Below the pieces are notes generated by a model. It made no database searches. It worked only from the letters and a program-made list of their open reading frames with translations, and was not told the DNA's origin. 50,315 bases of DNA from Propionibacteriaceae bacterium. Its GTDB lineage: Bacteria; Actinomycetota; Actinomycetes; Propionibacteriales; Propionibacteriaceae. The DNA is taken from assembly GCA_025965155.1 (NCBI GenBank), contig JAOPXN010000102.1, positions 1 through 50,315 on the forward strand, read 5' to 3'. This document shows positions 3 through 39,105 of the stretch, piece after piece (the stretch's first letter is position 1; each line of letters begins with the position of its first letter). Made by a program: the position numbers and the translations under genes.

Positions 3-1316
3 ATGGACGTGGCCTTGGTATCGGAGCATGCGAGCCCTTTAGCGGTGTTGGGCGGGGTCGATGCGGGTGGGCAGAACGTCCACGTAGCGGCCTTGGCCGC
101 AGCGCTTGCCAGCCGAGGCGACCGCGTCACCGTCTACACCCGCCGCGACGGTCCGGAGCTGCCCGAGCGACAGCACACGGCCGAAGGCTACGACGTCGTC
201 CACGTCCCCGCCGGGCCGGCGCGGCCGGTCGGTAAGGACGGCCTGCTGCGCTACATGCCCTCGTTCGGACAGTACCTGAGTCGATGCTGGGCGCAGGCCG
301 CGCCAGAGGTGGTGCATGCCCATTTCTGGATGTCCGGCCTCGCGGCCATGCAAGCGGCGCAGCCGTTGGCGGTACCGGTGGTGCAAACCTTCCACGCGCT
401 CGGCTCGGTCAAGCAGCGCCATCAGGGCAGCCGCGACAGCAGTCCGGTGGAGCGGTTGGAGCGCGAGGAGTGGCTGGCCCGCACGGTCACACGGGTGGTG
501 GCCACCTGCACCGACGAGGTGGCTGAGCTGGTACGGATGGGTGCCGATCTCCGTCGGCTCTCCGTGGTGCCGTGCGGTGTCGACCTGGCCGCGTTCCGGC
601 CGGCGGATCGCCGGTCCCCGACCCGACGGGTGGTCAGCGTCGGGCGGCTGGTCCCACGCAAGGGGTACGACCTGGTGATCGAGGCCGTGGCGCGGCTGCC
701 CACCGTGGAACTGGTGATCGCCGGCGGCGGGCCCGCGAACGATACCGAAACCGATACAGAGCGAACCCGGCTGTTGGCGGTCGCTGAGCAGCTCGGCGTC
801 GGCGACCGGGTACGGCTGGTCGGGCAGGTGGCGCGGGCCGACATGCCGGCCCTGCTCCGTTCGGCCGAGGTAGTGGTGTGTGCCCCCTGGTACGAGCCTT
901 TCGGGATCGTCCCGCTGGAGGCCATGGCCTGCGGTGTGCCGGTGGTGGCCACGTCGGTCGGCGGCTTCCTCGACACCGTGGTGGACCGGGTCACCGGAAT
1001 CCTGGTGCCGCCCAGGGACTCCGCGGCTCTAGCCGCGGCGCTCGCCCAGCTGGTGGACGATCCCCGGCTGGCCCACCGGCTCGGCGAGGCCGGTCGGCGC
1101 CGCGCCGAGCAGAGGTACAGCTGGGACACGGTGGCTGCTGACACCGCCCGGGTGTATCGGCAGGTGTTACAGCAGCAGGAAAACAAGGCGGCCGAGCCGG
1201 CCCGGTCCGTTCAGCGTGGGCCTGACCGACATCGACGACGGTCCCGGGACGACGTCTCAGCGGTCAAGCCACGACCTCGGGCCGCGGTGCCGCTGCCGGG
1301 TACACCCGGGCCATGA
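3..1316 (+). CDS. GT4 family glycosyltransferase
   Basis: Retaining GT-B glycosyltransferase, probably transferring a sugar from a nucleotide donor in the cytoplasm. The N-terminal loop [12 protein letters not shown] (residues about 17-28) is the acceptor-side Gly-rich motif of the MshA-like GT4 group, and the C-terminal domain has GRLVPRKG and the donor-binding E-x7-E pair at E298 and E306 ([14 protein letters not shown]). The last 45 or so residues are Arg-rich and look disordered. It overlaps the next gene by 4 bases (ATGA), so it belongs to the carbamoyltransferase/heptose cluster. The ATG lies 2 bases from the window edge, so a slightly more upstream start cannot be excluded. The acceptor and sugar are unknown. 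Confidence 0.85.
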
Positions 1317-2311
1317 CGCCGCCGCGGACAAGGTCGGTGATCCAAGACTCGGTGCGACCTCGGTTCGGTCGAGCGCTGGTGCTCGGGGGCGCCGGTTTCG
1401 TCGGCTCGCACCTCTGCGAGGCACTGGTTACGGGCGGCACCGCCGTGCTCTGCGTCGACAACTTCCTGACCGGCCGCCCGGAGAACCTGCTGGACCTGGA
1501 AGATTCGGCACTGTTCGAGCTGAGAGAGCACGACGTCAGCGTGCCGTTCGATGCCGGGCCTGTCGATGTGGTCTTCCATCTGGCGTCGGCCGCCTCTCCG
1601 GTGGACTATCAGCACTACCCGCTCGAGACGTTGCACGCCGGTTCCCTTGGCACCGAGTCGGGTCTGCAGATCGCCCGAGCCCAGGGGGCCCGTTTTCTCC
1701 TCGCGTCCACCAGCGAGGTGTACGGCGATGCGCAGGTCCATCCCCAGCCGGAGGGCTACTTCGGCAACGTCAACCCGATCGGCCCGCGCAGCGTGTACGA
1801 CGAGGCGAAGCGCTACGCCGAGGCGCTCACCTTCGCCTACCGCCGGACATACCGCGTGGACACCGCTGTCGCTCGGATCTTCAACACCTACGGCCCGCGG
1901 ATGCGTCCTGGTGACGGCCGGATGGTGCCCAACTTCGTCTGCCAGGCGCTGGCCGGTGAGCCGCTGACGGTGACAGGGACCGGCACCCAGACCCGTTCCC
2001 TGTGCTACGTCAGCGACACGGTCGCCGGGCTGCTCGCGCTGGCCGAGTCCGACCAGCCGGGACCGGTCAACATCGGGAACCCCCACGAACAGACGGTCGC
2101 TGACGTCGCTCGCCGGATTGCCGTGATCGCCGGCTCCGGCTCCGCGGTGCAGCTGATCGATGCTGTGGCCGACGACCCGCAGCGGCGCTGCCCCGACATC
2201 ACCCGTGCCCGGGAGTACCTGGGATGGGAGCCGACTGTGCCTATCGAGGAAGGGCTGCGGACCACGATCAGCTGGTTCGCAGAGCAGGCCCGGGCGCCCG
2301 CACCGAACTAG
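1313..2311 (+). CDS. NAD-dependent epimerase/dehydratase, UDP-glucuronate decarboxylase-like
   Basis: Extended short-chain dehydrogenase of 332 residues. It has the Rossmann motif [10 protein letters not shown] at about residues 25-34 and the catalytic Y162-x3-K166 (YDEAK). Stretches such as [20 protein letters not shown] and [19 protein letters not shown] closely resemble UDP-glucuronate decarboxylase (UDP-xylose synthase), which is the most likely reaction. It does not resemble HldD, the ADP-heptose 6-epimerase. Translation is coupled to the GT4 gene by an ATGA overlap. It probably supplies a nucleotide sugar to the neighbouring glycosyltransferases. Substrate specificity is inferred from sequence resemblance only. 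Confidence 0.82.
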
Positions 2312-2358
2312 GAAGAGACCCGGCGTCGAAACTACATGAAGTGAATTACCTATAGGTC

Positions 2359-2384
2359 GGTTCTGTCGCGACCGACGGGGGTAG
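2359..2384 (+). promoter_or_regulatory. candidate stress-sigma (SigB/SigF-type) promoter of the carbamoyltransferase-heptose operon
   Basis: GGTTCT (2359-2364) and GGGTAG (2379-2384) are separated by 14 bases, close to the actinobacterial SigB/SigF pattern GTTT-N14-16-GGGTAT. They lie in the only real gap (108 bp) of the 9.8-kb sugar cluster. An inverted repeat GTCGGT (2356-2361) / ACCGAC (2371-2376) overlaps the element. The call is pattern matching by eye. Confidence 0.4.
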
Positions 2385-2419
2385 GAGTACATTCGACAAG
2401 CCAGGCGGAGGGGTGACGC

Positions 2420-4045
2420 ATGCGGGTCCTCGGAGTAAATGCGGTCTTCCATGACTCGGCGGCCGCCGTAGTGGTTGACGGACGCACGGTCGCTGCGGCC
2501 GAGGAGGAGCGCTTCAGCCGGCGGAAGCATGGGAAACGTCCGGTCCCGTTCTCCACCTGGGAGCTGCCCGATGGCGCCATCGCCTGGTGTCTGCGTGAGG
2601 CCGGACTGGAGCCGGACGCGTTGGACGCCGTCGCGTACTCCTACGATCCGTCGCTGGTCGACCCCGACTCCGGCGGACTCGACCCCTCCTGGGAGTCGCT
2701 GCGGACCACCTATGCCACCCGCGCCCCGTACTTTCTTAAGACGTTGTTGCCCACCTACCGCCCGGAGATTTTCCGCTTTGTCCGCCACCATGTGGCGCAC
2801 GTGGCGTCGGCGGGGCTGGCCGCGCCGTTCGGCGACTGCGCCGTGCTAGCCGCAGACGGCCGCGGTGAGGCCACCTCCATGCTGGCTGGTGAGTATCGCG
2901 ACCAGAAGCTGGACGTCCTCGCCGCCCAGCCGCTGCCGCACTCCCTCGGCTTGTTCTACGAGGACCTGACCGAGCACCTCGGGTTCGCTCGGTCGAGCGA
3001 CGAGTACAAGGTGATGGCGCTGGCCTCGTACGGCACCCCGCGGCATCGCGACCGGCTGCGCACTGCGGTCTACTCAACGCCGGACGGTGGCTTCCGGACC
3101 CAGCCGTTCGACTGGGAGGAGTTCGCACCGCCACGCCGGGGCGAGGACGAGTTCGACGAGCGGCATGCCGACCTGGCCGCCAGCGTCCAGGTCGTGCTCG
3201 AGGAGGTGCTGCTGGAGCTGCTGGACTGGCTTTACCGGAGGACCGGCGCGCCGTACCTGGCGTTGGCCGGCGGGGTGGCGCTGAACTGCGTGGCGAACAC
3301 CCGGCTGCTGGCCGAGGGGCCGTTCAGCGAGATCTGGGTCCAGCCGGCGGCCGGCGACTCCGGTACCGCGCTGGGCGCGGCGATGGCTGTGGCAGCCGAG
3401 AGCGGTGACGTGGTGCAGCCGATGACCACGGCTGCGCTGGGGCGCGGGTGGAGTGACGCCGAGATCGAGGCGATCCTGCGGACCGCGAGGGTGCGTTATG
3501 AGCGGCCGCCCAGCATCGCCGCCGCGGCCGCGGCGGTGATCGCGGCCAACGGTGTGGTGGCGTGGTTCCAGGGCCGGGCGGAGTACGGCCCGCGCGCGCT
3601 GGGTCACCGCTCGTTGCTGGCCCACCCCTCCCGGGCCGACAACGTGGAGCGGCTCAACGACATCAAGGGACGCGAACAGTTCCGCCCGGTGGCCCCGATG
3701 GTGCTGCTGGACCGAGCCGCCGACATCTTCACGCGCGGACCGCTGCCGAGCCCGTACATGTTGTTTGTCCACGACGTTGTACCGGAGTGGCGGGACCGGC
3801 TGCAGGGGGTCACTCACGTCGACGGCACGGCCCGGATCCAGACGGTTGACCCGGCCGACGATGCGCTGATGGCGGAGTTGTTGACTGCCTTCGACCGGCT
3901 GAGTGGTGTACCGGTCGTCGTCAACACCAGCCTGAACACCGCCGGTCGGCCGATGGTCGACAGTCCGCAGGACGCGTTGGAGCTGTTCGGGTCCGCCCCG
4001 GTCGATGCCTTGGCGATCGGCCCGTTCCTGGTGCGCCGTCCATGA
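2420..4045 (+). CDS. carbamoyltransferase, NodU/CmcH family
   Basis: O-carbamoyltransferase of 541 residues, the family's usual size. These enzymes make carbamoyl-adenylate from carbamoyl phosphate and ATP and pass the carbamoyl group to a sugar or antibiotic hydroxyl. Visible motifs are the N-terminal GVNAVFHDSAAAVVVDG, the metal-binding His cluster H123/H124/H127 (RHHVAHVASAG), the Kae1-like GGVALNCVAN, and the C-terminal signature AEYGPRALGHRSLLAHPS followed by REQFRPVAP. A good ribosome site (GGCGGAGG, about 2404-2411) precedes the ATG. It is the first gene after a promoter-like gap and overlaps the next gene by ATGA. The acceptor is probably the cluster's heptose- or pentose-containing glycan, which is inference. 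Confidence 0.93.
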   Translation: MRVLGVNAVFHDSAAAVVVDGRTVAAAEEERFSRRKHGKRPVPFSTWELPDGAIAWCLREAGLEPDALDAVAYSYDPSLVDPDSGGLDPSWESLRTTYATRAPYFLKTLLPTYRPEIFRFVRHHVAHVASAGLAAPFGDCAVLAADGRGEATSMLAGEYRDQKLDVLAAQPLPHSLGLFYEDLTEHLGFARSSDEYKVMALASYGTPRHRDRLRTAVYSTPDGGFRTQPFDWEEFAPPRRGEDEFDERHADLAASVQVVLEEVLLELLDWLYRRTGAPYLALAGGVALNCVANTRLLAEGPFSEIWVQPAAGDSGTALGAAMAVAAESGDVVQPMTTAALGRGWSDAEIEAILRTARVRYERPPSIAAAAAAVIAANGVVAWFQGRAEYGPRALGHRSLLAHPSRADNVERLNDIKGREQFRPVAPMVLLDRAADIFTRGPLPSPYMLFVHDVVPEWRDRLQGVTHVDGTARIQTVDPADDALMAELLTAFDRLSGVPVVVNTSLNTAGRPMVDSPQDALELFGSAPVDALAIGPFLVRRP

Positions 4046-5697
4046 CGACCCTCGACGCGGGACTGGGGGACGCGCCGCCGGGTGAGGCGCCAATCGGCGA
4101 CGCGCTGCAGGGAAATCCGCCGGTGCGGGATCCGGCGACCCGGTACACCGTGGTCATCCCCACCATCGGCCGTTCCAGCCTGATCTGGTTGCTGGACGCG
4201 GTCACCGCAGCTGCGGCCGACGGTAACGGGCCCGAGATGATCATCGTGGTAGATGACCGTCCCGAGCCGGGGGACCTGGTGTTGCCTCATTCGTCGATCC
4301 CGATCGTGGTGGTTTGCACCGAAGGGCGCGGCCCGGCGGCGGCACGCAACGCCGGGTGGCGGCTGGCGCTGACCGAGTGGGTGGCGTTCCTGGACGACGA
4401 CGTCATGGTGCGCAGGGACTGGTGCCTGAGGCTGGTCGCGGACCTCGCCGCGCTGCCCCCCGATGTGGCCGGCAGCCAGGCCCAGATCAGGGTCCCGATG
4501 CCGGACGGTCGCCGCCCGACGGACGAGGAACGGCGTACCACGGGGCTCGCCGGCGCGCAGTGGATCACCGCCGACCTGGCGTACCGGCGAAGTGCGCTGC
4601 AGCTTTGCGACGGCTTCGACGAGCGGTTCCCGCGTGCCTTCCGGGAAGACTCCGACCTGGCGCTGCGGATGGTGCTGTCCGGCTTCCGAGTCGTCCGGGG
4701 CAAGCGGGAGACCGATCATCCGCTCCGACCGGGCTCCTGGACCGGCAGTATCCGGGCCCAGGCCGGGAACGCCGACAACGCCCTGCTGCGGGCGAAGTAC
4801 GGCCGCCACTGGCGGCGGCTGATCGGGGAACGCCCCGGCCGGCTAGGTCGCCATCTCGCCACCACTGCCGCAGCGGCCGGGCTCCTTCTTGCCGTGGCGC
4901 GCCGTAGCTGGCGGCCCGCGGGCGTGGCTGCGGCGGTCTGGACCTTGCTGACGGCGGAGTTCGCCGTGCGCCGGGCCAAGGCCGGCCCCAGAACGGCGCG
5001 CGAGCTGGCCGCCGTGGCTGTCACCAGCGCCGTGATCCCCCCGGCGGCAGTGCTCCATCGTGCCGCCGGCGCCTGGAAGTTCCGCTCGGTGGCACCGGTC
5101 CGGATGAAGAAGCGGGAACCGGGGCCCACCCCGCCTCGCCGCTCGGTGAGCACCGAGGCGGTCAACGCGACTCCCCGGGCCGTCCTGTTCGACCGGGACG
5201 GCACCCTCATCGTTGACGTGCCGTATCTGGCGGACGCAGCCGGGGTACAGCCCGTACCCGGTGCCCGTGAGGTGGTCCAGGACCTCCGTGCACGGGACAT
5301 CCGGATCGGTGTGGTGAGCAACCAGTCAGGCGTGGCCAAGGGGCTGATCAGCAACGACCAGCTCGCTGAGGTCAATGCACGGGTCGACGCCCTGCTCGGC
5401 CCCTTCGACACCTGGCAGCTCTGCCCGCACGACGCCGGACACGGCTGCGACTGCCGCAAGCCGCTACCGGGGATGGTGCTGCAGGCAGCACAGCAGCTGG
5501 GCGTGGACGTCGCCGACTGTGTCTTGATCGGCGACACCGTCACCGACGCGGAGGCTGCCCTGGCGGCCGGCGCGCAGGCCGTCCTGGTGATGCCGACGGT
5601 ATGGCCCGCCTCCGACCTGCTCCGGCCCCCCGCAGGTGTGCCGGTTGCCTCCACGCTGTCGGAGGCGGTGGCGCTTGCGGTAGGGAGGCCGCGATGA
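4042..5697 (+). CDS. fusion: GT2 glycosyltransferase - membrane segment - GmhB-type heptose-bisphosphate phosphatase
   Basis: A 551-residue two-enzyme protein. Residues about 30-260 are a GT2 (GT-A fold) transferase: YTVVIPTIGRSS, VVDDRPEPGD and the metal-binding acidic triplet D118-D119-D120 (FLDDDVMV). Residues about 270-345 contain two hydrophobic stretches likely to sit in the membrane. Residues about 375-545 are a HAD-IIIA phosphatase with D384-R-D386-G-T, the motif VVSNQSGVAKG, and the zinc ligands C461-P-H463, C469 and C471 seen in D-glycero-D-manno-heptose-1,7-bisphosphate 7-phosphatase (GmhB). HisB-type histidinol phosphatase is the main alternative, but GmhA and HldE homologues downstream favour GmhB. 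ATGA overlaps both neighbours. GmhB is normally a separate protein of about 190 residues, so the fusion is unusual. Confidence 0.88.
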   Translation: MTTLDAGLGDAPPGEAPIGDALQGNPPVRDPATRYTVVIPTIGRSSLIWLLDAVTAAAADGNGPEMIIVVDDRPEPGDLVLPHSSIPIVVVCTEGRGPAAARNAGWRLALTEWVAFLDDDVMVRRDWCLRLVADLAALPPDVAGSQAQIRVPMPDGRRPTDEERRTTGLAGAQWITADLAYRRSALQLCDGFDERFPRAFREDSDLALRMVLSGFRVVRGKRETDHPLRPGSWTGSIRAQAGNADNALLRAKYGRHWRRLIGERPGRLGRHLATTAAAAGLLLAVARRSWRPAGVAAAVWTLLTAEFAVRRAKAGPRTARELAAVAVTSAVIPPAAVLHRAAGAWKFRSVAPVRMKKREPGPTPPRRSVSTEAVNATPRAVLFDRDGTLIVDVPYLADAAGVQPVPGAREVVQDLRARDIRIGVVSNQSGVAKGLISNDQLAEVNARVDALLGPFDTWQLCPHDAGHGCDCRKPLPGMVLQAAQQLGVDVADCVLIGDTVTDAEAALAAGAQAVLVMPTVWPASDLLRPPAGVPVASTLSEAVALAVGRPR

Positions 5698-6800
5698 CGG
5701 CATCCACGACCGTCAGCCGGCCGTCCGTCAGCCGGGCACTCGTCAGTGCGGAAGGCACACCTGGTCGGATCCTCGTCTGCCGACTCGACAGCATGGGTGA
5801 TGTGCTGTTGGCGGCGGGCGCCGTACGGGCCGTGGCCCGCGAGGCCGAGGTCACGCTGCTGGTCGGGCCCGCCGGCAGAGCCGCAGCCGAGTTACTTCCC
5901 GGGGTTCGGGACTTGATCGAGTTCGACGCGCCCTGGGTACCGCTGGAGCCTGGACCGGTCCGGCCGGACGACGTGGACCGGCTGGTGGCGACGGTGGCCG
6001 AGTTCCGGTTCGACGCAGCCTTCATCATGACGTCGTTCCATCAGTCGCCGCTGCCGCTGGCGTTGCTGCTGCGGCTGGCCGGCGTCCCGTGGATCGGCGC
6101 CGCCAGCATCGACTACCCGGGATCGTTGCTCGACCTGCGGCACCGCCCGGACAGCGGACTGCACGAGGCTGAGCGGAATGTGTCGCTGGTGGCCGCGGCG
6201 GGTTTCAGCGCGGACGAGCGTGGCGCCGTAGGAGCCCTCAGGCAGCCGTTGCCGGACGTAGCCAGCTGGACCGGCGACCAGCCGTACGTAGTGCTGCATC
6301 CAGGCGCGGCCGTCTCCGCTCGCCGACCCAGCGCCGATCGGGCCGCCGAGCTGGCGAAGGCACTGCGCAGGGATGGACGGCGGGTGCTCGTCACCGGAGG
6401 CCGGCAGGAGACTGCCCTGACCGCACACGTGGCCGTAGCCGGTGCCGAAGACCTCGGCGGCCGGCTGGACCTCGCCGAGCTGGCCGCGGTGCTAGCCGGT
6501 GCCGAGGTGGCAGTGGTACCGAACACGGGTCCGGCGCATCTTGCGGCGGCAGTCGGTACGCCCGTTGTCTCACTCTTCGCCCCGGTGGTGCCGAGCGCGC
6601 AGTGGGCGCCGTACGGGGTGCCGGTCATTGTGCTGGGTGACCAGCAGGCGCCCTGCCGGGACAGCCGCTCCCGGAACTGCCCGGTAGCTGGGCATCCCTG
6701 TCTCGACGCCATCCGCCCCGGTGACGTGGTCGAGGCCGTTTCCATCCTCGCCGGCGCAACCGGCCCGGCGACCGCGATACCCATCGGAGGGCGACTGTGA
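5694..6800 (+). CDS. GT9 (heptosyltransferase-like) glycosyltransferase, first copy
   Basis: Member of the WaaC/WaaF/WaaQ GT-B family, 368 residues. It has the N-terminal motif ILVCRLDSMGDVLLAAGAVR, a central HPGAAVSARRPS, and the family donor-site signature NTGPAHLAAAVGTPVVSLF followed by a Cys-containing segment (CRDSRSRNCPVAGHPC) like that of WaaF. The start is ATG 5694, which overlaps the preceding stop (ATGA) and has GGGAGG about 6 bases upstream. An in-frame upstream extension to 5601 lies inside the previous gene and is not needed. It probably transfers heptose made by the neighbouring enzymes. The acceptor cannot be an LPS core if the host is a monoderm actinomycete, so it is unknown. 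Confidence 0.88.
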   Translation: MTASTTVSRPSVSRALVSAEGTPGRILVCRLDSMGDVLLAAGAVRAVAREAEVTLLVGPAGRAAAELLPGVRDLIEFDAPWVPLEPGPVRPDDVDRLVATVAEFRFDAAFIMTSFHQSPLPLALLLRLAGVPWIGAASIDYPGSLLDLRHRPDSGLHEAERNVSLVAAAGFSADERGAVGALRQPLPDVASWTGDQPYVVLHPGAAVSARRPSADRAAELAKALRRDGRRVLVTGGRQETALTAHVAVAGAEDLGGRLDLAELAAVLAGAEVAVVPNTGPAHLAAAVGTPVVSLFAPVVPSAQWAPYGVPVIVLGDQQAPCRDSRSRNCPVAGHPCLDAIRPGDVVEAVSILAGATGPATAIPIGGRL

Positions 6801-7360
6801 CCGAGAACCACCTCATCGCGTTGGCGCGTGCCGCCGAGCTGAACGTTTCCGCGGCGGCCATCGTGACCGGCTGGGGCAGCGAGCTGGCCCGGATCCTGCA
6901 GGCTGGAGGTCGCCTGCTGGCCTGTGGGAACGGCGGCAGCGCGGCCCAAGCGCAGCACCTCACCGGGGAGCTTGTCGGACGCTTCAGACACGACCGGGAC
7001 CCGTACGCGGCGATCGCTCTGCATGCCGACACATCGGCTCTGACCGCGATCCTGAACGACTACGGCCTGGACGAGATGTTCGCCCGGCAGGTCCGAGCTC
7101 ATGGCCGCGCCGGGGACGTTCTGGTCGCGTTCTCCACCAGCGGTTCCAGCAGCAACGTGCTGGCGGCGGCGAAGGCCGCCCAGCAGATCGGCGTGACGGT
7201 CTGGGCGCTGACCGGACCCGCGCCCAACCCGCTCGCGGCCATCGCCGACGATGCGGTCGTGATCGATGCAGGCTGTACGGCAACGATCCAGGAGATCCAC
7301 CTGGCACTGACCCATGGCCTGTGCCTGGCGATGGACGAAGCTCTCGGAGTGCCGACGTGA
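6797..7360 (+). CDS. gmhA: sedoheptulose-7-phosphate isomerase (phosphoheptose isomerase)
   Basis: SIS-domain isomerase of 187 residues converting sedoheptulose-7-P to D-glycero-D-manno-heptose-7-P, the first step of NDP-heptose synthesis. The phosphosugar site is CGNGGSAAQAQHL (N45-G-G-S48), with STSGSSSNVLAAA as the second phosphate loop and the catalytic-type EIHLALTHGLCLAMD near the C-terminus. GmhA proteins are about 190 residues, so this is full length. GTGA overlaps link it to both the GT9 gene and the kinase gene. Position next to GmhB-, HldE- and GT9-like genes supports the heptose assignment over other SIS isomerases. Confidence 0.92.
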   Translation: MTENHLIALARAAELNVSAAAIVTGWGSELARILQAGGRLLACGNGGSAAQAQHLTGELVGRFRHDRDPYAAIALHADTSALTAILNDYGLDEMFARQVRAHGRAGDVLVAFSTSGSSSNVLAAAKAAQQIGVTVWALTGPAPNPLAAIADDAVVIDAGCTATIQEIHLALTHGLCLAMDEALGVPT

Positions 7361-8847
7361 GCCGCGGGCTCGGTGGGGGCCCGCTGGTGATTGTCGGTGA
7401 CTCGCTGCTGGACGTTGACCTGGACGGAACGGCGGAACGGCTGAGCCCCGAGGCCCCGGTCCCGGTGGTCGACCTGAACCAGCGCCGGCAGCGGCCGGGC
7501 GGTGCGGCGTTGGCTGCGCTGATGGCCGCACGGAGCGGCCAGGAGGTGGTGCTTGTCACGGCGCTCGCCGAGGACGACCCCGGGCGGCAGCTGGCCGGGC
7601 TGTTGGCCGGACTGGAGGTGGTGGGGATGCCGCTGGACGGCGGCACCATCTGCAAGACGAGAGTCCGCGCCTGCGGTCAGCCGATGCTGCGGATCGACTC
7701 CGGTACCGGACGCGCCACCGACCGACCGCTCAGCCGCCGCGCAACGGAGGTCCTCGACACGGCAGGGGCCGTCCTGGTGGCCGACTACGGTCGCGGGGTC
7801 GCAGCTATCCCGGGCCTTCGGGCCGCGCTGGCGCGGCAGACCGGCCGGGCGCCGGTCGTCTGGGACCCGCATCCGCGCGGGGCGGATCCGGCACCGGGCA
7901 TGACGCTGCTCACGCCCAACGCCTCGGAGGCGGAAGGGCTGGCCGGCAACAGCACGGATCCAACGGGTCAAGGCCGGCTCATCTGCCGACGGTGGCGAGC
8001 CGACGCGGTGGCCGTCACGGTCGGGGAGCGCGGCGCCTTGCTCAGTCAGCAGGACACAGGAACGACGACTGCCGTTCCGCCGCGGCAGCGAGACGCTGCC
8101 GCGGCGCCGACAACGCTGGACACCTGTGGGGCCGGGGACCAGTTCGCCGTGGCGGCGGCGGCTGCCCTGCTGGCGGGTGCCACGGTGCTGGAAGCCACCC
8201 GTGCCGGTGTGGACGCGGCGACTCTCTACGTCTATGACGGGGGAGCGGCGGCCCTCTCCTCGACCGTCTTCGCCGACTCGCCGCTGGTGGCTGCGGGCGG
8301 GAGCGGCAGCGTGGACCCGACACCGGCCGAGGTGCTTGCGCTGGCCGAGCAGGTACGCCGCTCGGGCGGCCGGGTGGTCGCAACCGGGGGCTGTTTTGAC
8401 CTGTTGCATCCAGGCCATGTCTCGCTGCTCCAGCGGGCTCGGGAGCTTGGCGACGTCCTGATCGTCTGCCTCAACTCCGACGCCTCCGTCCGCCGCGCCA
8501 AGGGACCGTACCGCCCGGTGGTGTCGCAGCAGGACCGGGCCCGGGTGCTGACTGCGCTCGCTGCGGTCGACGCTGTCATCATCTTCGACGAGGACAGCCC
8601 CGCGGAGGTTCTGGCGCGGCTGCGCCCGGACGTGTGGGTCAAGGGCACGGACTACGCCGGCGCTAAGCTGCCCGAGGAGCCGGTGGTACGCCGGCATGGT
8701 GGACGGGTGGCGCTGCTGCCGACGGTCGCGGGGTACTCGACCACCCACCTCGTTCAGACGGTCCGGCCGGACAAGAGATCCTTCAGTGGTCGCCCGTCGA
8801 CCCGTACCCGAGACGTCTGCGATGGAACGGCCCCCACCATCCCCTGA
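7357..8847 (+). CDS. hldE: bifunctional heptose-7-phosphate kinase / heptose-1-phosphate nucleotidylyltransferase
   Basis: HldE-like protein of 496 residues (E. coli HldE is 477). The N-terminal PfkB/ribokinase domain (about 1-325) has VIVGDSLLDVDLDG, the HldE signature RLSPEAPVPVV, RPGGAA, and the catalytic G258-A-G-D261. The C-terminal domain (about 338-475) is a cytidylyltransferase-fold enzyme with G345-C-F-D348-LLH351PGH354 and ending GYSTTHLVQTV, like the HldE end. It would phosphorylate heptose-7-P at C1 and, after the GmhB step, attach a nucleotide to give ADP- or GDP-heptose. The start is GTG 7357 (GTGA overlap with gmhA). A longer in-frame reading back to 6721 runs through gmhA and is spurious. 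No HldD epimerase is present, so the product may stay in the D,D form. Confidence 0.92.
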   Translation: MSRGLGGGPLVIVGDSLLDVDLDGTAERLSPEAPVPVVDLNQRRQRPGGAALAALMAARSGQEVVLVTALAEDDPGRQLAGLLAGLEVVGMPLDGGTICKTRVRACGQPMLRIDSGTGRATDRPLSRRATEVLDTAGAVLVADYGRGVAAIPGLRAALARQTGRAPVVWDPHPRGADPAPGMTLLTPNASEAEGLAGNSTDPTGQGRLICRRWRADAVAVTVGERGALLSQQDTGTTTAVPPRQRDAAAAPTTLDTCGAGDQFAVAAAAALLAGATVLEATRAGVDAATLYVYDGGAAALSSTVFADSPLVAAGGSGSVDPTPAEVLALAEQVRRSGGRVVATGGCFDLLHPGHVSLLQRARELGDVLIVCLNSDASVRRAKGPYRPVVSQQDRARVLTALAAVDAVIIFDEDSPAEVLARLRPDVWVKGTDYAGAKLPEEPVVRRHGGRVALLPTVAGYSTTHLVQTVRPDKRSFSGRPSTRTRDVCDGTAPTIP

Positions 8848-9832
8848 GGGCATCAGCCGGGAACGGCGCGGTGGCCACGTGGTTGTGCTGCGAGCACTCG
8901 GGCTGGGCGATCTGCTCACCGCCGTCCCTGCGCTTCGGGCGATCCGCCGCGGCTTCCCGACCGCCACCATCAGCCTCGCCTGTCCCGCGGTGCTGGAGCC
9001 CTTGGTGGTCCTGATGGGGGCGGTGGACGAGGTGCTGGATACCCCCGACCTGGGAATGTTGGGCAGGCCCAAGCCGCGGCCTCAGGTTGCGATCGACCTG
9101 CACGGGTGGGGCCCGGAGAGCATCGGGGACGTGATCGGTACCGGTGCGCCGAAGGTGTGGTCACACTGGCACCCGTCTTTCCCGGAGTTGGACGGTCCGC
9201 AGTGGCGGGCCGACCAGCACGAGGTCATCCGATGGTGCCGGATGCTCGACTATTTCGGGCTCGGCGCCGACCCCACCGACCTACGGATCGCCAAGCCGGA
9301 GGTCCGCTCCGTTGCGCCCGGCGCCGTCGTCGTGCACCCCGGCGCCAAGGCGTCGGGCCGGCGCTGGCCGGTGGACCGGTTCGCAACTGTGGCGCGGGCT
9401 CTCCGGCGCAGCGGCCATCGGGTGGTGGTCACCGGGTCGGCGGCGGAGCTCGGTTTGGCCTCCGAGCTGGCTCAGCTGGCGGGACTGCCCGACGACTCGG
9501 TGCTGGCCGGTCAGCTGGATCTCGCCGCCCTGGCGGCACTGGTCGCCGCAGCGCGGCTGGTGGTCTGCGGCGACACCGGCGTGGCGCATCTGGCGAGCGC
9601 GTACGGCACCCCGTCGGTGCTGTTGTTCGGTCCCACCCCGCCGGGGTGGTGGGGTCCGCCCCGCGGTGGTCCGCACGTGGTCTTGTGGAAGGGCCGGCGA
9701 GGCGATCCGCATGCCGAGCAGCCGGACCCGGGGCTGTTGGAGATCTGCCCGTCCGAGGTGCTGTCCGCGGCGACGCGCCTGCTGTCGCAGGTCCCCCCCG
9801 CCGGTGGTCAGCCGACAGCTCAGACGTTGTAG
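8822..9832 (+). CDS. GT9 (heptosyltransferase-like) glycosyltransferase, second copy
   Basis: Second GT9 enzyme of the cluster, 336 residues from ATG 8822. It has VVVLRALGLGDLLTAVPALR at the N-terminus, VVHPGAKASGRRWPVDRF in the middle, and the donor-site CGDTGVAHLASAYGTPSVLL. It lacks the Cys-rich stretch of the first copy, so the two probably make different linkages. The ATG overlaps the hldE end by 26 bases, and further GTG starts exist upstream, so the exact N-terminus is uncertain. The 3' end overlaps the convergent reductase gene by 13 bases. It closes the heptose cluster. Confidence 0.87.
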   Translation: MERPPPSPEGISRERRGGHVVVLRALGLGDLLTAVPALRAIRRGFPTATISLACPAVLEPLVVLMGAVDEVLDTPDLGMLGRPKPRPQVAIDLHGWGPESIGDVIGTGAPKVWSHWHPSFPELDGPQWRADQHEVIRWCRMLDYFGLGADPTDLRIAKPEVRSVAPGAVVVHPGAKASGRRWPVDRFATVARALRRSGHRVVVTGSAAELGLASELAQLAGLPDDSVLAGQLDLAALAALVAAARLVVCGDTGVAHLASAYGTPSVLLFGPTPPGWWGPPRGGPHVVLWKGRRGDPHAEQPDPGLLEICPSEVLSAATRLLSQVPPAGGQPTAQTL

Positions 9833-29332: not shown

Positions 29333-30199
29333 TCAGTGCCCGCGGTGGTGCAGCTGGGGCGACGTGGTGAAGGTGAGCCGGTCACCCGGGCGGGCCTGGG
29401 CGGCGTGGTCGCAGGCGCGTTCGGTCAGCACCGCGATCACCGGGTAGCCGCCGGTGACCGGATGGTCGGGGCCGAAGACAATCGGCTGGCCCGATGCCGG
29501 AACCTGGATCGCTCCGCGCAGCAGCCCCTCCGAGGGAAGCTCGTCGGTGATCCTGCGTTCCAGGGAAGGTCCGTTGAGCCGCAGCGCGACCCGGTCGGAG
29601 TCGCTGGTGACGGTCCAGGTGCTCGCCAGCAGCGCCTGCCAGGCCGAGTCGGTGAACCAGTCCCGACGCGGGCCCGGACTGACCTGGAGCCGGGTACGGG
29701 GCGGCAGCGACGGTGCGAACTCCACCCCGGAAACCGGTCTGTCCGACTCTTTGACGCCGATCCGCTGTCCTTTCACCAGTGCGGGCGGGCCGATCCTGGA
29801 CAGCGTGTCGGTCGATCGGCTGCCCAGCACCGGTTCCACGTCCAGCCCGCCGCGCACGACCAGATACGTCCGCAGCCCGGCAGGCGGAGTGCGTACGGTC
29901 AGCCGGTCGGCGGCGGCGAGATGGATCACGGTGTGGGAGGCGGTGGGGATGTCATTCACCCAGATCTCGGTCGGAGCGCCGGTGACGGCAACCCAGGTCG
30001 CGGTGTCGGTGCTGACCTGAAGACCGCCGAGGACCGTCTCGATCCCGGCCGCGTCCTCACGGTTGCCGACCAGCCGGTTCGCCAGGGTCAGGGCGTACCG
30101 GTCGGCGGCGCCGGATCGAGGCACCCCCAGGTGCGACTGGTGCGGCCGACCCAGGTCCTGGATCAGCGACAAGGGCCCGGGGTTGACGACGGTGATCAT
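29333..30199 (-). CDS. pxpC: 5-oxoprolinase subunit C (biotin-dependent carboxyltransferase-like)
   Basis: 288-residue PxpC/KipA-like protein, the third subunit of the prokaryotic ATP-dependent 5-oxoprolinase. It starts [20 protein letters not shown], a strong family signature, and continues with [33 protein letters not shown] and [17 protein letters not shown]. It acts with PxpA and PxpB to hydrolyse 5-oxoproline to glutamate. It overlaps pxpB by ATGA. The length is typical (about 290-310). Confidence 0.9.
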
Positions 30200-30912
30200 C
30201 GTGGTCCCGGTCGGGGCTCGGCAGCGGCCTCGCCAGCGTCCGATGGACCCTTCTCAGCGTCGACGAACTGGACCCGGGTGCCGGGGGAAAGCAGCGCCGG
30301 AGGTTCCCGATCGGTGTCCCACAGGACCAGGTCCGTACGTCCGATCAGCTGCCAGCCGCCCGGGCCCTCCCGGGGATAGACACCGGAGAACGGCCCGGCC
30401 AGCCCGACAGTGCCGGCCGGGACCCGGGTCCGCGGCGACGAGCGTCGCGGCACCTCGGGAAGCGCGCCGTCGCCCAACAGGTACCCGAAGCCGGGCGCGA
30501 AGCCGCAGAACGCAACGGTCCAGAGCTGACCGATGTGGGCGGCGACCAGCTGGTCCGGGCTGAGGCCGAGGATTCCGGCCGCATCGTCCAGGTCGTCCCC
30601 GTCGTAGTGCACGGGGATGGTGACCGAGGCGTGGTCGGTCCGGCGCTCTGGGTCGGCGGACGCGGTCAGCACAGTCTTGGCGCTCGCCGGCCCCAGCGGC
30701 CGATCCAGGATCAGCAGGACCGTCCGGGCTCCCGGGACCAGTTCGCTCACCTCCGGGGGAACTGAGTGAGTGAGCGCGGCCAGCAGGCGCTGGGTGTCCT
30801 GCAGGTCGGCGCATTCGACCAGCACCCCTTGGTCGCCGTAGGGCAGCAGCCGTCGGCCCGTTCCTCCGCCCGTCCCTGCCATCTCGCTGTTCAACACCTC
30901 GTTGTTCGACAT
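30196..30912 (-). CDS. pxpB: 5-oxoprolinase subunit B
   Basis: 238-residue PxpB/KipI-like subunit. It has LLPYGDQGVLVE near the start, IPVHYDGDDLDDAAGILGLS, the hallmark FCGFAPGFGYLLGD, and PRTRVPAGTVGLAG. ATG 30912 is four bases after the pxpA stop; a reading from 30948 would overlap pxpA. It forms the ATP-using part of 5-oxoprolinase with PxpC, to which it is coupled by an ATGA overlap. Confidence 0.9.
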   Translation of the reverse strand: MSNNEVLNSEMAGTGGGTGRRLLPYGDQGVLVECADLQDTQRLLAALTHSVPPEVSELVPGARTVLLILDRPLGPASAKTVLTASADPERRTDHASVTIPVHYDGDDLDDAAGILGLSPDQLVAAHIGQLWTVAFCGFAPGFGYLLGDGALPEVPRRSSPRTRVPAGTVGLAGPFSGVYPREGPGGWQLIGRTDLVLWDTDREPPALLSPGTRVQFVDAEKGPSDAGEAAAEPRPGPR

Positions 30913-30916
30913 GGCG

Positions 30917-31642
30917 CTACTCGCTGGTGAACGGTGCGATGGTGACATCGGCGTTGGTCAGGGCCGCGCGGACCACGGTGGCCATCTGGACCGCGCCGGG
31001 GGAGTCTCCGTGAGTGCAGAAGGAGTCTGCGCGGTGGCTCCGGGCTGCCTCGACCGCGCGCTGCGCGGCCACCTGCGGGTCGTGGATCAAGGCGTCGGGC
31101 TGGCGTCTGTCGACGAGCCTCCCATCGGCGGTGTAGTTACGGTCGATGAAGTACTCGGTGACGGTCCTGAGGCCGCGCTCCGCCGCGATGGAGAGGAAGG
31201 CGGAGCCGGGAAGTCCGAGGACCGGCAGGTCGGGGTCGTACGCAAGCACGGCGTCCACCAGCGCGTGGGCCTGGCCCTCGTGGTCCACGACGGTGTTGTA
31301 GAGCGCGCCGTGTGGCTTGAGGTAGCTGACCCGGCCGTGCTCCGCCCGCGCCAGACCGGCCAGCGCACCGATCTGGTAGATCACGTCGGCCGCCAGGTCC
31401 GCAGCGGAGATGTCGATGAAGCGTCGCCCGAAGCCGGCGAGGTCCCGGTAGCCCACCTGGGCGCCGATCCGGACACCGGCGTCGATAGCGGCCCGGCAGG
31501 TGGCTCGGATCGCCGTTGGGTCGCCGGCGTGGAACCCGCAGGCGACATTGGCGCTGGTGATCAGCTCGACCATGGCGAGGTCGTCGCCGAGGGTCCAGCG
31601 ACCGAACGACTCGCCCAGATCGGCGTTGAGGTCGATGGACAT
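30917..31642 (-). CDS. pxpA: 5-oxoprolinase subunit A (LamB/YcsF family)
   Basis: 241-residue PxpA with the family signatures [43 protein letters not shown] and [12 protein letters not shown], and a C-terminal [13 protein letters not shown]. It is the first gene of a pxpA-pxpB-pxpC operon that recovers glutamate from 5-oxoproline. ATG 31642 is chosen because the protein begins in the conserved motif. A longer reading to 32329 would run across the intergenic inverted repeat and antisense to the DinB gene. The upstream gap (186 bp) carries a long inverted repeat. Confidence 0.93.
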
Positions 31643-31693
31643 GTCTTGATTTTCCCGTATGCCGTGGACTCTGGTCAGGCGACCCTGGCGACC

Positions 31694-35983: not shown

Positions 35984-36739
35984 TCAGATCGGCAGCCGGC
36001 GGAACAGCGGGCGGGGCACGTGCCTCAGTCCTGACATCACCACGCGCATCGGAGCAGGCACCCAGATGATCTCCCGCTTCTCCTTGACGCCGGCCACCGT
36101 CGCCTCGGCCACCTCCTGCGGCGTCACCGCCAGCGGGGCCGCCGGCAGGCCATCGGTCATCTTGGACTTCACGAAACCGGGGCGGACCACCAGGACCTGC
36201 ACCCCGGTTCCACGCAGCGCCTCACCGAGGCCCAGATAGAACGCGTCCATCCCGGCCTTGGTGGAGCCGTAGACGAAGTTGGAGCGGCGGACCCGTTCAC
36301 CGGCCACGCTGGACAGCGCCACGATCCGGCCGTGGGACTGGGCCTTCATCTTGTTCGACAGCAGCACCCCGAGGTGCACCGGTGCGACGTAGTTGACCTC
36401 GGCGAGCTCGCTGACCAGCGCCGGATCGGTCCACGCCTGCTCGGCGTCGCCGAGCAACCCGAACGCCACCACCGCCACGTCGATGTCGCCGCCGGCGAAG
36501 GCCTGCTCGATCGCGGCCTCCCGGGAGAAGGCATCCCGGGCTTCCAGGTCGACCTCTTCCACGGTGCAGCCGAGCTCGGCCAGCTCGGCCGCGGCCGCCG
36601 AGCGGCGAGGGGTCGGCCGTGCCGCCAGCACCACCCGCAGGGTACGTACGGCCGCGTACCGCCGAGCGATCGCCAAGGCGATGTCAGAGGTGCCGCCGAG
36701 CAGCAGCAGCGACTGGGGGGCGCCGAGGGCGTCGATCAT
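35984..36739 (-). CDS. dprE2: decaprenylphosphoryl-2-keto-ribose reductase
   Basis: Short-chain dehydrogenase of 251 residues. It has the cofactor motif LLLLGGTSDIALAIARRYA, VAFGLLGD, LSSVAGERVRRSNFVYGSTK with the catalytic Tyr/Lys pair (YGSTK), and FVKSKMTDGLP. Sequence and position after dprE1 identify DprE2, which uses NADH to reduce decaprenylphosphoryl-2-keto-erythro-pentofuranose to decaprenylphosphoryl-D-arabinose on the cytoplasmic or membrane face. AAGGAG precedes ATG 36739. It forms an operon with ubiA and dprE1. Confidence 0.92.
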   Translation of the reverse strand: MIDALGAPQSLLLLGGTSDIALAIARRYAAVRTLRVVLAARPTPRRSAAAAELAELGCTVEEVDLEARDAFSREAAIEQAFAGGDIDVAVVAFGLLGDAEQAWTDPALVSELAEVNYVAPVHLGVLLSNKMKAQSHGRIVALSSVAGERVRRSNFVYGSTKAGMDAFYLGLGEALRGTGVQVLVVRPGFVKSKMTDGLPAAPLAVTPQEVAEATVAGVKEKREIIWVPAPMRVVMSGLRHVPRPLFRRLPI

Positions 36740-36787
36740 GGTTCTCCTTGTTGGTGCCGACCGGGCACCCGGTACGGATCGGTTGGG

Positions 36788-38209
36788 TCAGTGCAGCTGG
36801 AGGCGACGTGCCAGGTCAGAGTTGAACAACCCGTCCGGGTCCACCTTGCGACGGACGGCCAGAAAGTCGTCCAACCGCGGGTACATCTGCCGGAAGGTCG
36901 ACGCGCTCAGCCGGGAGTCCTTGGCCAGATAGACCCGACCGCCGGCGGCCACCACCAGCTCGTCCAGGGTGTTGCAGAGCGAGTCCAGCCCCTCCTCGAT
37001 CGGCAGGTCCACCGTCAACGTCCACCCCTGCATCGGGAAGGACAGCGGTGCCGCGTTGCCAGGCCCGAACCGCTTCAACACGTTCAGGCAGGAGACATGG
37101 CCCGAGTTCACGATCAGCTCGAAACAGCGCCGGAACGTCTCATCCTCGCTGAACGGAACCACGAACTGGTACTGCAGGAACCCGTGCGGGCCGTAGATCC
37201 GGTTCCACTCGGCCACGATGTCCAGCGGGTGGAAGAACGACGTGATGTTCTGCAGCTCGCCCACCCGGTATTTCGGGGCCTTGTAGTACCAGGCGGTGCT
37301 GAAGGCCTTGGCCGTCGCCCGGTTGACCATCCGGTTCGGGAAAATCTCCGGGATGGTGCCCAAGGAGGGGGCCACGAACTGCAGCGGGTCTCGCCGGAGC
37401 TTCGGCGTCAGATCTTGCAGCCGGGCCTTGTTGCCCCGGGTCAACACCGCCCGGCCCATGTGCTTTCCCCGGCTGACGGCGTCGAACCAGGCCACCGAGT
37501 AGGTGTACCCGTCGTCGCCTTCGCTCATCCGGGCCATCAGGTCGTCGATGTCGGTGCAGCGTTCTGTGTCGACCAGGAAGTACGCGGACTCCGTACGCTG
37601 CAGCACGATGGTGGCGCCCAGCACAACACCCGTCAGGCCCATGCCACCGATGGTGGCCCAGAACAGGTCCGCCGTGTCCCCCTCGGGTCTCAGGGTCTGG
37701 ATCTCTCCGTCGGCACGCAGCAGGTCGAGGGAGGCCACATGGTTACCGAAACTGCCTTCGGTGTGGTGGTTCTTGCCATGTACGTCGGCTGCGATGGCGC
37801 CGCCAACGGTGACCTGACGGGTGCCGGGGAGCACGGGGACCCACAGACCGAAAGGCAGCAGGGTGCGCATCAGCGAGTCCAGGCTGACGCCGGCCTGGAC
37901 TTGCACGGTCGGCGGCTCGCTCTCGGCGTCGACCGAGAGCACCCGGTTCAGCTTCGTCAGGTCCAGCGCGGTGCCGCCGGCGTTCTGTGCAGCATCGCCA
38001 TAGCTGCGACCCAACCCGCGGGGCACCACACCACGGCCGGACTGGGCAGCGGACCGGAGCGCCGAGACGGCACCCGAGATCGACTCGATCTGTGTCAGGT
38101 GGGCGCTGGTCGAGGAGGCGCGACCCCAGCCATGCAGCGGCACCATCGGCTGGGCCTCCGGCATCGACGGGGTGATCTTCGTTTCCTGGTACGGGAAGTC
38201 GTCGGTCAC
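36788..38209 (-). CDS. dprE1: decaprenylphosphoryl-beta-D-ribose 2-oxidase
   Basis: 473-residue FAD oxidoreductase of the vanillyl-alcohol-oxidase fold. The FAD part has RGLGRSYGDAAQNAGG and TVGGAIAADVHGKNHHTEGS, and the C-terminal part has LNVLKRFGPGNAAPLSFPM and DSRLSASTFRQMYPRLDDF. It oxidises the ribose 2-OH of decaprenylphosphoryl-ribose. At the position of M. tuberculosis Cys387 (the residue bonded by benzothiazinones, in GWNICVDFPI) this protein has Thr399 in GWTLTVDLPI. GTG 38209 overlaps the ubiA stop (GTGA). Confidence 0.94.
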   Translation of the reverse strand: MTDDFPYQETKITPSMPEAQPMVPLHGWGRASSTSAHLTQIESISGAVSALRSAAQSGRGVVPRGLGRSYGDAAQNAGGTALDLTKLNRVLSVDAESEPPTVQVQAGVSLDSLMRTLLPFGLWVPVLPGTRQVTVGGAIAADVHGKNHHTEGSFGNHVASLDLLRADGEIQTLRPEGDTADLFWATIGGMGLTGVVLGATIVLQRTESAYFLVDTERCTDIDDLMARMSEGDDGYTYSVAWFDAVSRGKHMGRAVLTRGNKARLQDLTPKLRRDPLQFVAPSLGTIPEIFPNRMVNRATAKAFSTAWYYKAPKYRVGELQNITSFFHPLDIVAEWNRIYGPHGFLQYQFVVPFSEDETFRRCFELIVNSGHVSCLNVLKRFGPGNAAPLSFPMQGWTLTVDLPIEEGLDSLCNTLDELVVAAGGRVYLAKDSRLSASTFRQMYPRLDDFLAVRRKVDPDGLFNSDLARRLQLH

Positions 38210-39105
38210 CAGAACACCGCAATCGAAATCAACACGAGCCAGACAGCTCCAATCGCTTGTAACACGTGGTCGTGCAAGACGACGTCCTCCGGTTCGCCGG
38301 CAGCACCAGCATCCACCTCAAGCGCGTACTGCAACAAGCCCAGGGTGAACGGGGCGATGGAGAGCGCCGTCCACGGTATGCCGAGCGCCGGGTCGCTTCG
38401 GTTCTCGAACGCCCACAGGCTGTAGGAGATCAGCACCATCGCCGCTGCCAGCATCCAGACGAACCGCAGATAGGACTGCGAGTAACGGCCGAGCGACCGC
38501 CGGGTGCCGGCATCGGCCCCGATGTCCTTTAGCTCGGAGTAGCGCTTGCCGGCCACCATGAACAAGGACCCGAACGAGGCCACCAGCAAGAACCACTGGC
38601 TGAGCGGAATGCCCGTGGCCACACCACCGGCGATGGCACGGAGCAAGAAGCCGCTGGACACCATGGCCAGGTCGACCACCGGGAGGTGCTTGAGGAATAC
38701 CGAGTAGATCACCTGGAGAACGAGATACACGGCGAGGGTGATGCCGAGGTTGACCGAGGTGAGAAAGCCGATCGCGAAGCCGGCGGCACCGGTCACGGCA
38801 GCCAGCACCAGCGCGGCGGCTGAGCTGATCTCGCCGGCGGCGATCGGGCGCAGCCGCTTCCGCGGATGCATCCGGTCCTCCTCCACGTCCCGCACGTCGT
38901 TGATCAGATAGACGCAGGCACTGACCAGGCAGAAGGCGACGAACGCCAGCGCCGCCTTGGCCAGCACCGTGCTGTTCAGCAGCTGACCGGCCGCGAGCGG
39001 CGCGGCCAGGACGAGCACGTTCTTCACCCACTGGCGCGGTCGCATGGCGCGGACGGCGGCCGGCAGTCGGCTGGGTCGGAGCACGACCTCGGTGGGCTGG
39101 GACAT
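38206..39105 (-). CDS. ubiA: decaprenyl-phosphate phosphoribosyltransferase (UbiA family)
   Basis: 299-residue polytopic membrane prenyltransferase with about nine hydrophobic helices. The polyprenyl-phosphate/Mg site is YLINDVRDVEEDRMHPRKRL, and a second motif is VASFGSLFMVAGKRYSELKD. It matches Rv3806c-type DPPR synthase, which adds phosphoribose to decaprenyl phosphate as the first step toward decaprenylphosphoryl-arabinose. It is first in the ubiA-dprE1-dprE2 operon. A TAATCT hexamer lies 9 bases before ATG 39105 on the - strand and no ribosome site is clear, so its transcript may be leaderless or nearly so. Confidence 0.92.
   Translation of the reverse strand: MSQPTEVVLRPSRLPAAVRAMRPRQWVKNVLVLAAPLAAGQLLNSTVLAKAALAFVAFCLVSACVYLINDVRDVEEDRMHPRKRLRPIAAGEISSAAALVLAAVTGAAGFAIGFLTSVNLGITLAVYLVLQVIYSVFLKHLPVVDLAMVSSGFLLRAIAGGVATGIPLSQWFLLVASFGSLFMVAGKRYSELKDIGADAGTRRSLGRYSQSYLRFVWMLAAAMVLISYSLWAFENRSDPALGIPWTALSIAPFTLGLLQYALEVDAGAAGEPEDVVLHDHVLQAIGAVWLVLISIAVFW

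Follow-up and report, generated by a model that had tools for sequence, protein, structure and literature searches.

A cwg-type operon in a Propionibacteriaceae genome with a predicted gene set for ADP-D,D-heptose synthesis, probably serving a carbamoylated envelope glycan

Why should a monoderm actinomycete carry enzymes familiar from the inner core of lipopolysaccharide (LPS)? The question is raised by a contig of 50,315 nucleotides from a Propionibacteriaceae bacterium (GenBank assembly GCA_025965155.1, contig JAOPXN010000102.1, our C57), analysed here at its whole length and called the window. At positions 3-9832 eight genes lie on the plus strand, coding for a GT4 glycosyltransferase, a short-chain dehydrogenase/reductase (SDR) of the UDP-xylose synthase (UXS) type, a carbamoyltransferase, a GT2-GmhB fusion, a first GT9 enzyme (GT9a), GmhA, HldE and a second GT9 enzyme (GT9b). 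A sequence-only reading of this DNA had taken the set for LPS-core enzymes out of place in an actinomycete. Instead, we find that the locus is conserved among actinobacteria and corresponds to the cwg operon of Streptomyces coelicolor. It probably supplies ADP-D,D-heptose and UDP-xylose to the synthesis of a carbamoylated envelope glycan, which would aid tolerance of wall stress. Membership in this known, chemically uncharacterised operon type is what is new beyond the sequence-only reading.

SCO6179-6190 of S. coelicolor are described as a putative cell wall glycan operon, cwg, which is sigma-E dependent and induced by vancomycin, with the polysaccharide deacetylase gene SCO6178 divergent upstream of it (PMC6767563). 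Published names make cwgB, C, E, G and J transferases, cwgD a dehydratase, cwgH a phosphoheptose isomerase and cwgI a bifunctional synthase/transferase (PMC5839063); cwgE is also named a putative heptosyl transferase (PMC5882110). Nine of nine cwg families are present co-directionally in the window, with GT4 moved and GT2 and GmhB fused. The order UXS, carbamoyltransferase, GT2, GmhB, GT9a, GT4, GmhA, HldE, GT9b recurs in several Streptomyces loci, and in others some cluster genes are unmatched or lie beyond the fetched stretch. In the locus of S. violaceorubidus (L116) the published cwg sigma-E promoter is matched at 27 of 29 bases, a GTG in frame with the UXS gene follows 146 bases past the match (published 147), and a polysaccharide deacetylase gene lies divergent upstream, like SCO6178. 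This GTG is one of several in frame and was picked for the GAGGAGGA stretch that precedes it. The same locus holds an additional GT4 between GT9a and GT4 as well as GT2-type reading frames after GT9b, the first recognised by Pfam and the next by eye.

Pfam matches back the family assignment of all eight genes (Table 1), and motif residues are kept in all six families checked by row alignment. Every gene named in the sequence-only reading (GmhA, a GmhB domain, HldE, two GT9 enzymes, GT4, GT2, a carbamoyltransferase and an epimerase) was recovered by profile matches. The four-base ATGA and GTGA junctions it had placed at 1313 and across 4042-7360 were confirmed by direct reading, with ATGA at 1313-1316, 4042-4045 and 5694-5697 and GTGA at 6797-6800 and 7357-7360. 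GT9b most likely starts at the ATG at 8822 rather than at 8696, the start of the longest open reading frame, and then overlaps HldE (stop codon 8845-8847) by 26 bases. A gap of 108 bases separates the end of the UXS-type gene at 2311 from the carbamoyltransferase start at 2420. A chance grouping is excluded by the profile matches together with the synteny in other genera. Since base 1 of the window is the contig end, the operon may be truncated on its 5' side. The gene after GT9b lies on the minus strand and matches an F420 reductase weakly (46 bits).

Table 1. Genes of the cwg-type locus in the window, with supporting profile or structure matches.
Gene product	Length (amino acids)	Position	Strand	Support
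GT4 glycosyltransferase	437	3..1316	+	PF00534 149 bits; match in 64/80 loci
UDP-glucuronate decarboxylase / UDP-xylose synthase type SDR	332	1313..2311	+	human UXS1 345 bits
O-carbamoyltransferase, CmcH/NodU/TobZ type	541	2420..4045	+	PF16861 212 bits, PF02543 188 bits
GT2 (~residues 35-350) + GmhB-type phosphatase (~379-550) fusion		4042..5697	+	PF00535, HAD models
GT9a, heptosyltransferase-family glycosyltransferase	368	5694..6800	+	PF01075 80 bits (cut-off 22)
GmhA, sedoheptulose-7-phosphate isomerase	187	6797..7360	+	TIGR00441 162 bits (cut-off 209)
HldE, bifunctional heptose-7-phosphate kinase / heptose-1-phosphate adenylyltransferase	496	7357..8847	+	TIGR02199 186 bits (cut-off 181.5)
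GT9b, heptosyltransferase-family glycosyltransferase	336	8822..9832	+	PF01075 94 bits (cut-off 22)

All four activities of the ADP-D,D-heptose pathway were found with their motif residues kept, namely GmhA, the HldE kinase, GmhB and the HldE adenylyltransferase. The earlier claim of a full gene set from sedoheptulose 7-phosphate to ADP-heptose is thus supported in silico by profiles, solved relatives and motif residues. GmhA finds its best matches among solved phosphoheptose isomerases, DiaA, a GmhA look-alike, scoring lower, and its Glu58 and His173 are kept in 70 of 70 cluster rows. For the GmhB domain the top solved relative is a heptose bisphosphate phosphatase; the Cys/His residues that we take to be zinc ligands are conserved in all 33 fused rows (their role, like those of the other pathway residues, is presumed). 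The H-x-G-H motif of the HldE adenylyltransferase is kept in 60 of 60 cluster rows, and this HldE is the sole copy in its genome over the TIGR02199 cut-off.

HldD, sought across the whole genome, gave eight matches, none of them over the curated cut-off, and the heptose should therefore stay in the D,D form, as the sequence-only reading had suggested. Two substitutes were considered and rejected. The UXS-type gene reaches 63.8 bits against an HldD cut-off of 274.6 and matches UXS1 far better. Linked SDR frames match in 50 of 88 loci, but the best of 33 matches in the own genome shows only 36% identity. Regarding the nucleotide, a GRSTT motif is tied to broad nucleoside triphosphate use by the STTR5 adenylyltransferase (PMC11573728). 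The window HldE reads GYSTT and not GRSTT; a promiscuous STTR5-type enzyme was therefore rejected, and ADP-heptose is the expected product. Among the 60 cluster rows GRS[ST][ST] occurs in 26 and GYS[ST][ST] in 25, while four fit the full published motif.

Judged by its matches, the SDR at 1313-2311 is a relative of UDP-glucuronate decarboxylase. The next solved family after human UXS1 reaches 122 bits, and STSE as well as the Tyr and Lys of YDE[A/S]K are kept in 63 of 63 rows. dTDP-glucose dehydratase, its top NCBIfam match, was discarded with 135 bits against a cut-off of 365. A UDP-glucose dehydrogenase domain over cut-off is encoded elsewhere in the genome (C55), so that UDP-glucuronate for the UXS-type enzyme would be available. 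In one further locus (L084) a gene of the UDP-glucose dehydrogenase family, with relatives in 22 of 88 loci, adjoins GT9b, which fits the need for UDP-glucuronate and so for UDP-xylose.

The carbamoyltransferase is 65-80% identical to six relatives, and its solved relatives include GdmN and TobZ, enzymes that decorate antibiotics. This likeness would suit an operon whose product is a heptose-containing secondary metabolite that the cell secretes, like those of septacidin and hygromycin B producers, and ADP-heptose is described as feeding septacidin-type antibiotics (PMC10948575). We regard such a product as very unlikely. A similar gene order is conserved in many genera, the set matches the wall-stress operon cwg, and the ten neighbour frames scanned, two of them without a Pfam match, contain no assembly-line, nucleoside or exporter family. 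Of the products named in the sequence-only reading, the carbamoylated glycan or glycolipid is favoured by the two GT9 enzymes and the carbamoyltransferase, and the exported metabolite is weakened because of this broad conservation and the missing assembly-line and exporter families in the ten frames. The same ten frames revealed no flippase, polymerase, ABC exporter or LCP ligase.

Both GT9 genes of the genome lie in this window. Their AlphaFold models have a mean predicted local distance difference test score (pLDDT) of 86 (GT9a) and 92 (GT9b). The Asp of the GD motif and Asn277 of GT9a are found in 58 of 58 rows and Asp251 of GT9b in 53 of 53. With at best 56 bits for GT9a and 79 bits for GT9b, equivalog level is missed against the models of LPS heptosyltransferases I-III (TIGR02193, TIGR02195, TIGR02201; cut-offs 134.6 to 185.3). 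A weak match of GT9a to TIGR04414, the model of autotransporter heptosyltransferases (18.7 bits), might point to heptose being put on proteins by O-heptosylation rather than on a glycan or lipid. Among the alternatives weighed we consider this the least likely, as the match stays far under the cut-off of 200 bits and several more glycosyltransferases are conserved alongside.

For the GT4 the top NCBIfam model is MshA with 248 bits, under the cut-off of 462.5. A membrane-anchored GT2 was considered and dismissed, since hydropathy stayed below the threshold applied along the whole GT2-GmhB protein. The genome holds a second, unlinked GT4 (C43, 52% identical). It lies inside a contig of 122 kb, and within 20 kb around it, judged by eye, no other glycan gene was recognised, so that no link to the missing upstream part is drawn.

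Could the locus be an LPS core locus proper after all? In the genome of 4.49 Mb, labelled 100% complete with 2.28% contamination, searches for LpxC (PF03331) and the transferase of 3-deoxy-D-manno-octulosonic acid (Kdo; PF04413) gave no match for either family. As far as these markers tell, LPS is excluded and the heptose is not part of it; the acceptor cannot be lipid A-Kdo.

The gene set was followed across actinobacterial genomes, as the sequence-only reading had proposed, and was found in many genera. A contig search with the carbamoyltransferase alignment supplied the best 80 of 515 loci, all of them named and selected by that gene. GmhA or HldE is present in 62 of them and all nine families in 34, the single counts being UXS 58, GT2 65, GmhB 53, GT9a 51, GT4 64, GmhA 61, HldE 59 and GT9b 51. 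GT2 and GmhB are fused in 28 of the 80. Thirteen loci hold at most the carbamoyltransferase and GT2, some of them ending at contig ends. Eight of these 13 carry the name of Geodermatophilaceae genera or of the family. Geodermatophilaceae-type loci (L044, L058, L060, L062, L066, L080, L082, L092) have the carbamoyltransferase with no heptose genes in the fetched flanks. Klenkia (L109), also of the Geodermatophilaceae, has the cluster. L062 is labelled Bacillus sp. AZ43 and nests among Geodermatophilaceae-type loci in the tree; the record is probably misnamed. In Mycobacterium innocens (L112) the carbamoyltransferase and a UXS-type gene are accompanied by only GT2 pieces and part of a GT4, with no match to GmhA or HldE in the fetched stretch, perhaps a decaying copy.

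A second sample of 394 genomes of the class was not chosen by this cluster. TIGR02199 occurs over its cut-off in 80 of these genomes and PF01075 (GT9) in 110. At least 61 of the 80 have a GT9 within 10 kb of HldE, and 19 are without one among the matches listed. In five genomes of the class (G110, G125, G246, G280, G385) there are two HldE adenylyltransferase domains, on opposite strands and separated by roughly 10-11 kb.

Among 57 relatives, GmhA matches (E <=0.001) occur in 27, many of them distant. Of 15 stretches fetched around such matches ten have the syntenic cluster and five do not. Six of the ten include carbamoyltransferase, UXS and GT2, one of these six (L028) being without a GmhB match; another of the ten (L024) is a contig of 5.9 kb. 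Two records, L025 (G016, same genus) and L038 (a Propionibacteriaceae metagenome-assembled genome), are an identical contig in reverse complement. Frames from ten representative loci were compared with 88 loci for co-conservation, giving a second GT4 in 70, an SDR in 50, GT2 in 39 and pyruvyltransferase-type and UDP-glucose dehydrogenase frames in 22 each.

Trees were built for the carbamoyltransferase (86 rows, quick method, among the rows listed) and for HldE (63 rows). In both, the window and its Propionibacteriaceae relatives group with Nocardia, Amycolatopsis and Prauserella, and the same-genus G014 (L035) stands elsewhere, from which we infer that exchange between lineages is likely.

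Several points weigh against the assignment to a cwg-type heptose operon. The assignment itself is indirect, since it runs via gene order, promoter and divergent neighbour, and the S. coelicolor operon was compared by its published description. The promoter match was obtained in one of 17 Streptomyces loci; the other 16 reach at most 20 of 29 bases, so that this comparison does not reveal the promoter in them. In the window, where 0.12 matches would be expected by chance, one sigma-E-like pattern found none, the promoter of the operon itself lying off-contig, and a sigma-E-like promoter within the window was rejected. The literature surveyed, mostly at the level of titles and abstracts and with the primary 2002 and 2022 papers outside it, yielded no chemistry or product of a cwg glycan; likewise, its titles and abstract starts yielded no paper on an actinomycete heptose glycan.

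Among the heptose equivalog models TIGR02199 alone clears its cut-off. NF008454 (HldE, 300 bits, cut-off 521), NF006506 (GmhB domain, 112 bits, cut-off 178), TIGR02198 (HldE kinase), TIGR00441 (GmhA) and the heptosyltransferase models stay below, and the models that the GmhB domain does pass are broader ones, for HAD and histidinol-phosphatase subfamilies. Moreover, Asn277 of GT9a sits where GT9b and the aligned WaaF row have Asp. The GT9a donor may therefore not be heptose and may differ from the donor of GT9b.

The missed cut-offs and the invariant Asn in GT9a would fit enzymes that act on other sugars, with repurposed GmhA and HldE homologues and a different donor for GT9a or GT9b. Against this stand the joint presence of all four pathway activities with their motif residues kept, the heptose enzymes found as closest solved relatives of GmhA and GmhB, and the pairing of HldE with GT9; we judge this alternative unlikely and hold a cwg-type operon for ADP-D,D-heptose to be more probable.

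The last point against it concerns composition. Three genomes of the same genus (G003, G015, G017; loci L023, L026, L027) keep GT4, GmhB, GT9, GmhA and HldE. The 20 kb fetched from each include neither UXS nor GT2, and a search of the three whole genomes turned up no carbamoyltransferase. In a further genome (G005) a carbamoyltransferase of 76% identity is located on another contig. With the heptose core present in three genomes that have no carbamoyltransferase, carbamoylation is accessory, not bound to that core, and the carbamoyl/xylose module is separable.

In two of these loci a second HldE, 38-40% identical, was found within the same 20 kb as the cluster (L023 16729-19177, L026 15901-18319). 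The copy in L023 adjoins an undecaprenyl-diphosphatase gene (BacA, 275 bits), which may indicate either a further heptose product or a connection to a lipid carrier. L026 has a frame of equal length there.

From gene content, family assignment, conserved motifs, synteny and the missing matches to the LPS genes sought, we infer substrates, step order, carbamoylation site, destination and role as follows. GmhA would convert sedoheptulose 7-phosphate to heptose 7-phosphate, and together with HldE and GmhB it would lead to ADP-D,D-heptose, the heptose remaining D,D with no HldD. UDP-glucose dehydrogenase, encoded elsewhere, and the UXS-type enzyme would supply UDP-xylose. GT4, GT2, GT9a and GT9b would then assemble an oligosaccharide in the cytosol on some acceptor, GT9b and probably also GT9a adding heptose. 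The carbamoyltransferase would act on a hydroxyl group, plausibly on heptose, the nearest precedent being WapO at position 7 of a core heptose. Export to the envelope would fall to a transporter encoded away from the operon, and once there the product would help the cell to tolerate wall stress.

If this is right, monoderm actinomycetes have an envelope glycan that contains heptose and, with it, a supply of ADP-heptose. The biochemistry of the sequence-only reading was largely right; the value added lies in the chemical prediction and in the breadth of the locus. The comparison turns a cell-wall-glycan label into a testable prediction of D,D-heptose, xylose and O-carbamoyl, and the cwg-type locus extends far beyond Streptomyces. 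A wider view, in which cwg is the monoderm counterpart of the LPS inner core, is possible and offered tentatively; on balance we would sooner doubt it. It would have GT9 enzymes build a stress-induced D,D-heptose oligosaccharide, usually with xylose and carbamoyl, across much of Actinomycetota. Many Gram-positive actinomycetes (Nocardia species, a Mycolicibacterium) would then contain ADP-D,D-heptose as a by-product, and sensing of this compound would not be restricted to Gram-negative bacteria.

Two further runs on the minus strand of the window were noted. At 35984-39105 lies a set for decaprenylphosphoryl-arabinose, in which DprE1 (725 bits), DprE2 (384 bits) and a decaprenyl-phosphate phosphoribosyltransferase (387 bits) each score above the cut-off of their best model; this suggests that the Propionibacteriaceae bacterium has a wall polymer of the arabinan type. 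The 5-oxoprolinase subunits PxpA, PxpB and PxpC are encoded at 29333-31690, the PxpB match and the equivalog match of PxpC being below their cut-offs.

Compared with known systems, the window shares ADP-heptose enzymes, GT9 enzymes and a carbamoyltransferase with the LPS inner core of Pseudomonas, where WapO is reported to carbamoylate HepII, Cm-(->7) (PMC8005017). It differs from that core in that its genome is without HldD over cut-off, LpxC and Kdo transferase, in the predicted heptose, which is D,D and not L,D, and in its additional UXS gene. The actinobacterial tridomain NDP-heptose synthetases, reportedly the subject of work by Tang in 2022, likewise concern nucleoside diphosphate (NDP)-heptose synthesis in Actinobacteria, whereas the window encodes the isomerase separately from a two-domain HldE. 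Compared with the cwg operon of S. coelicolor, the window has GT2 and GmhB fused, GT4 before the UXS gene, its second GT4 on another contig (C43) and no GT2 genes after GT9b. Otherwise, judging by the published names and the Streptomyces loci, both consist of the same families in the same order.

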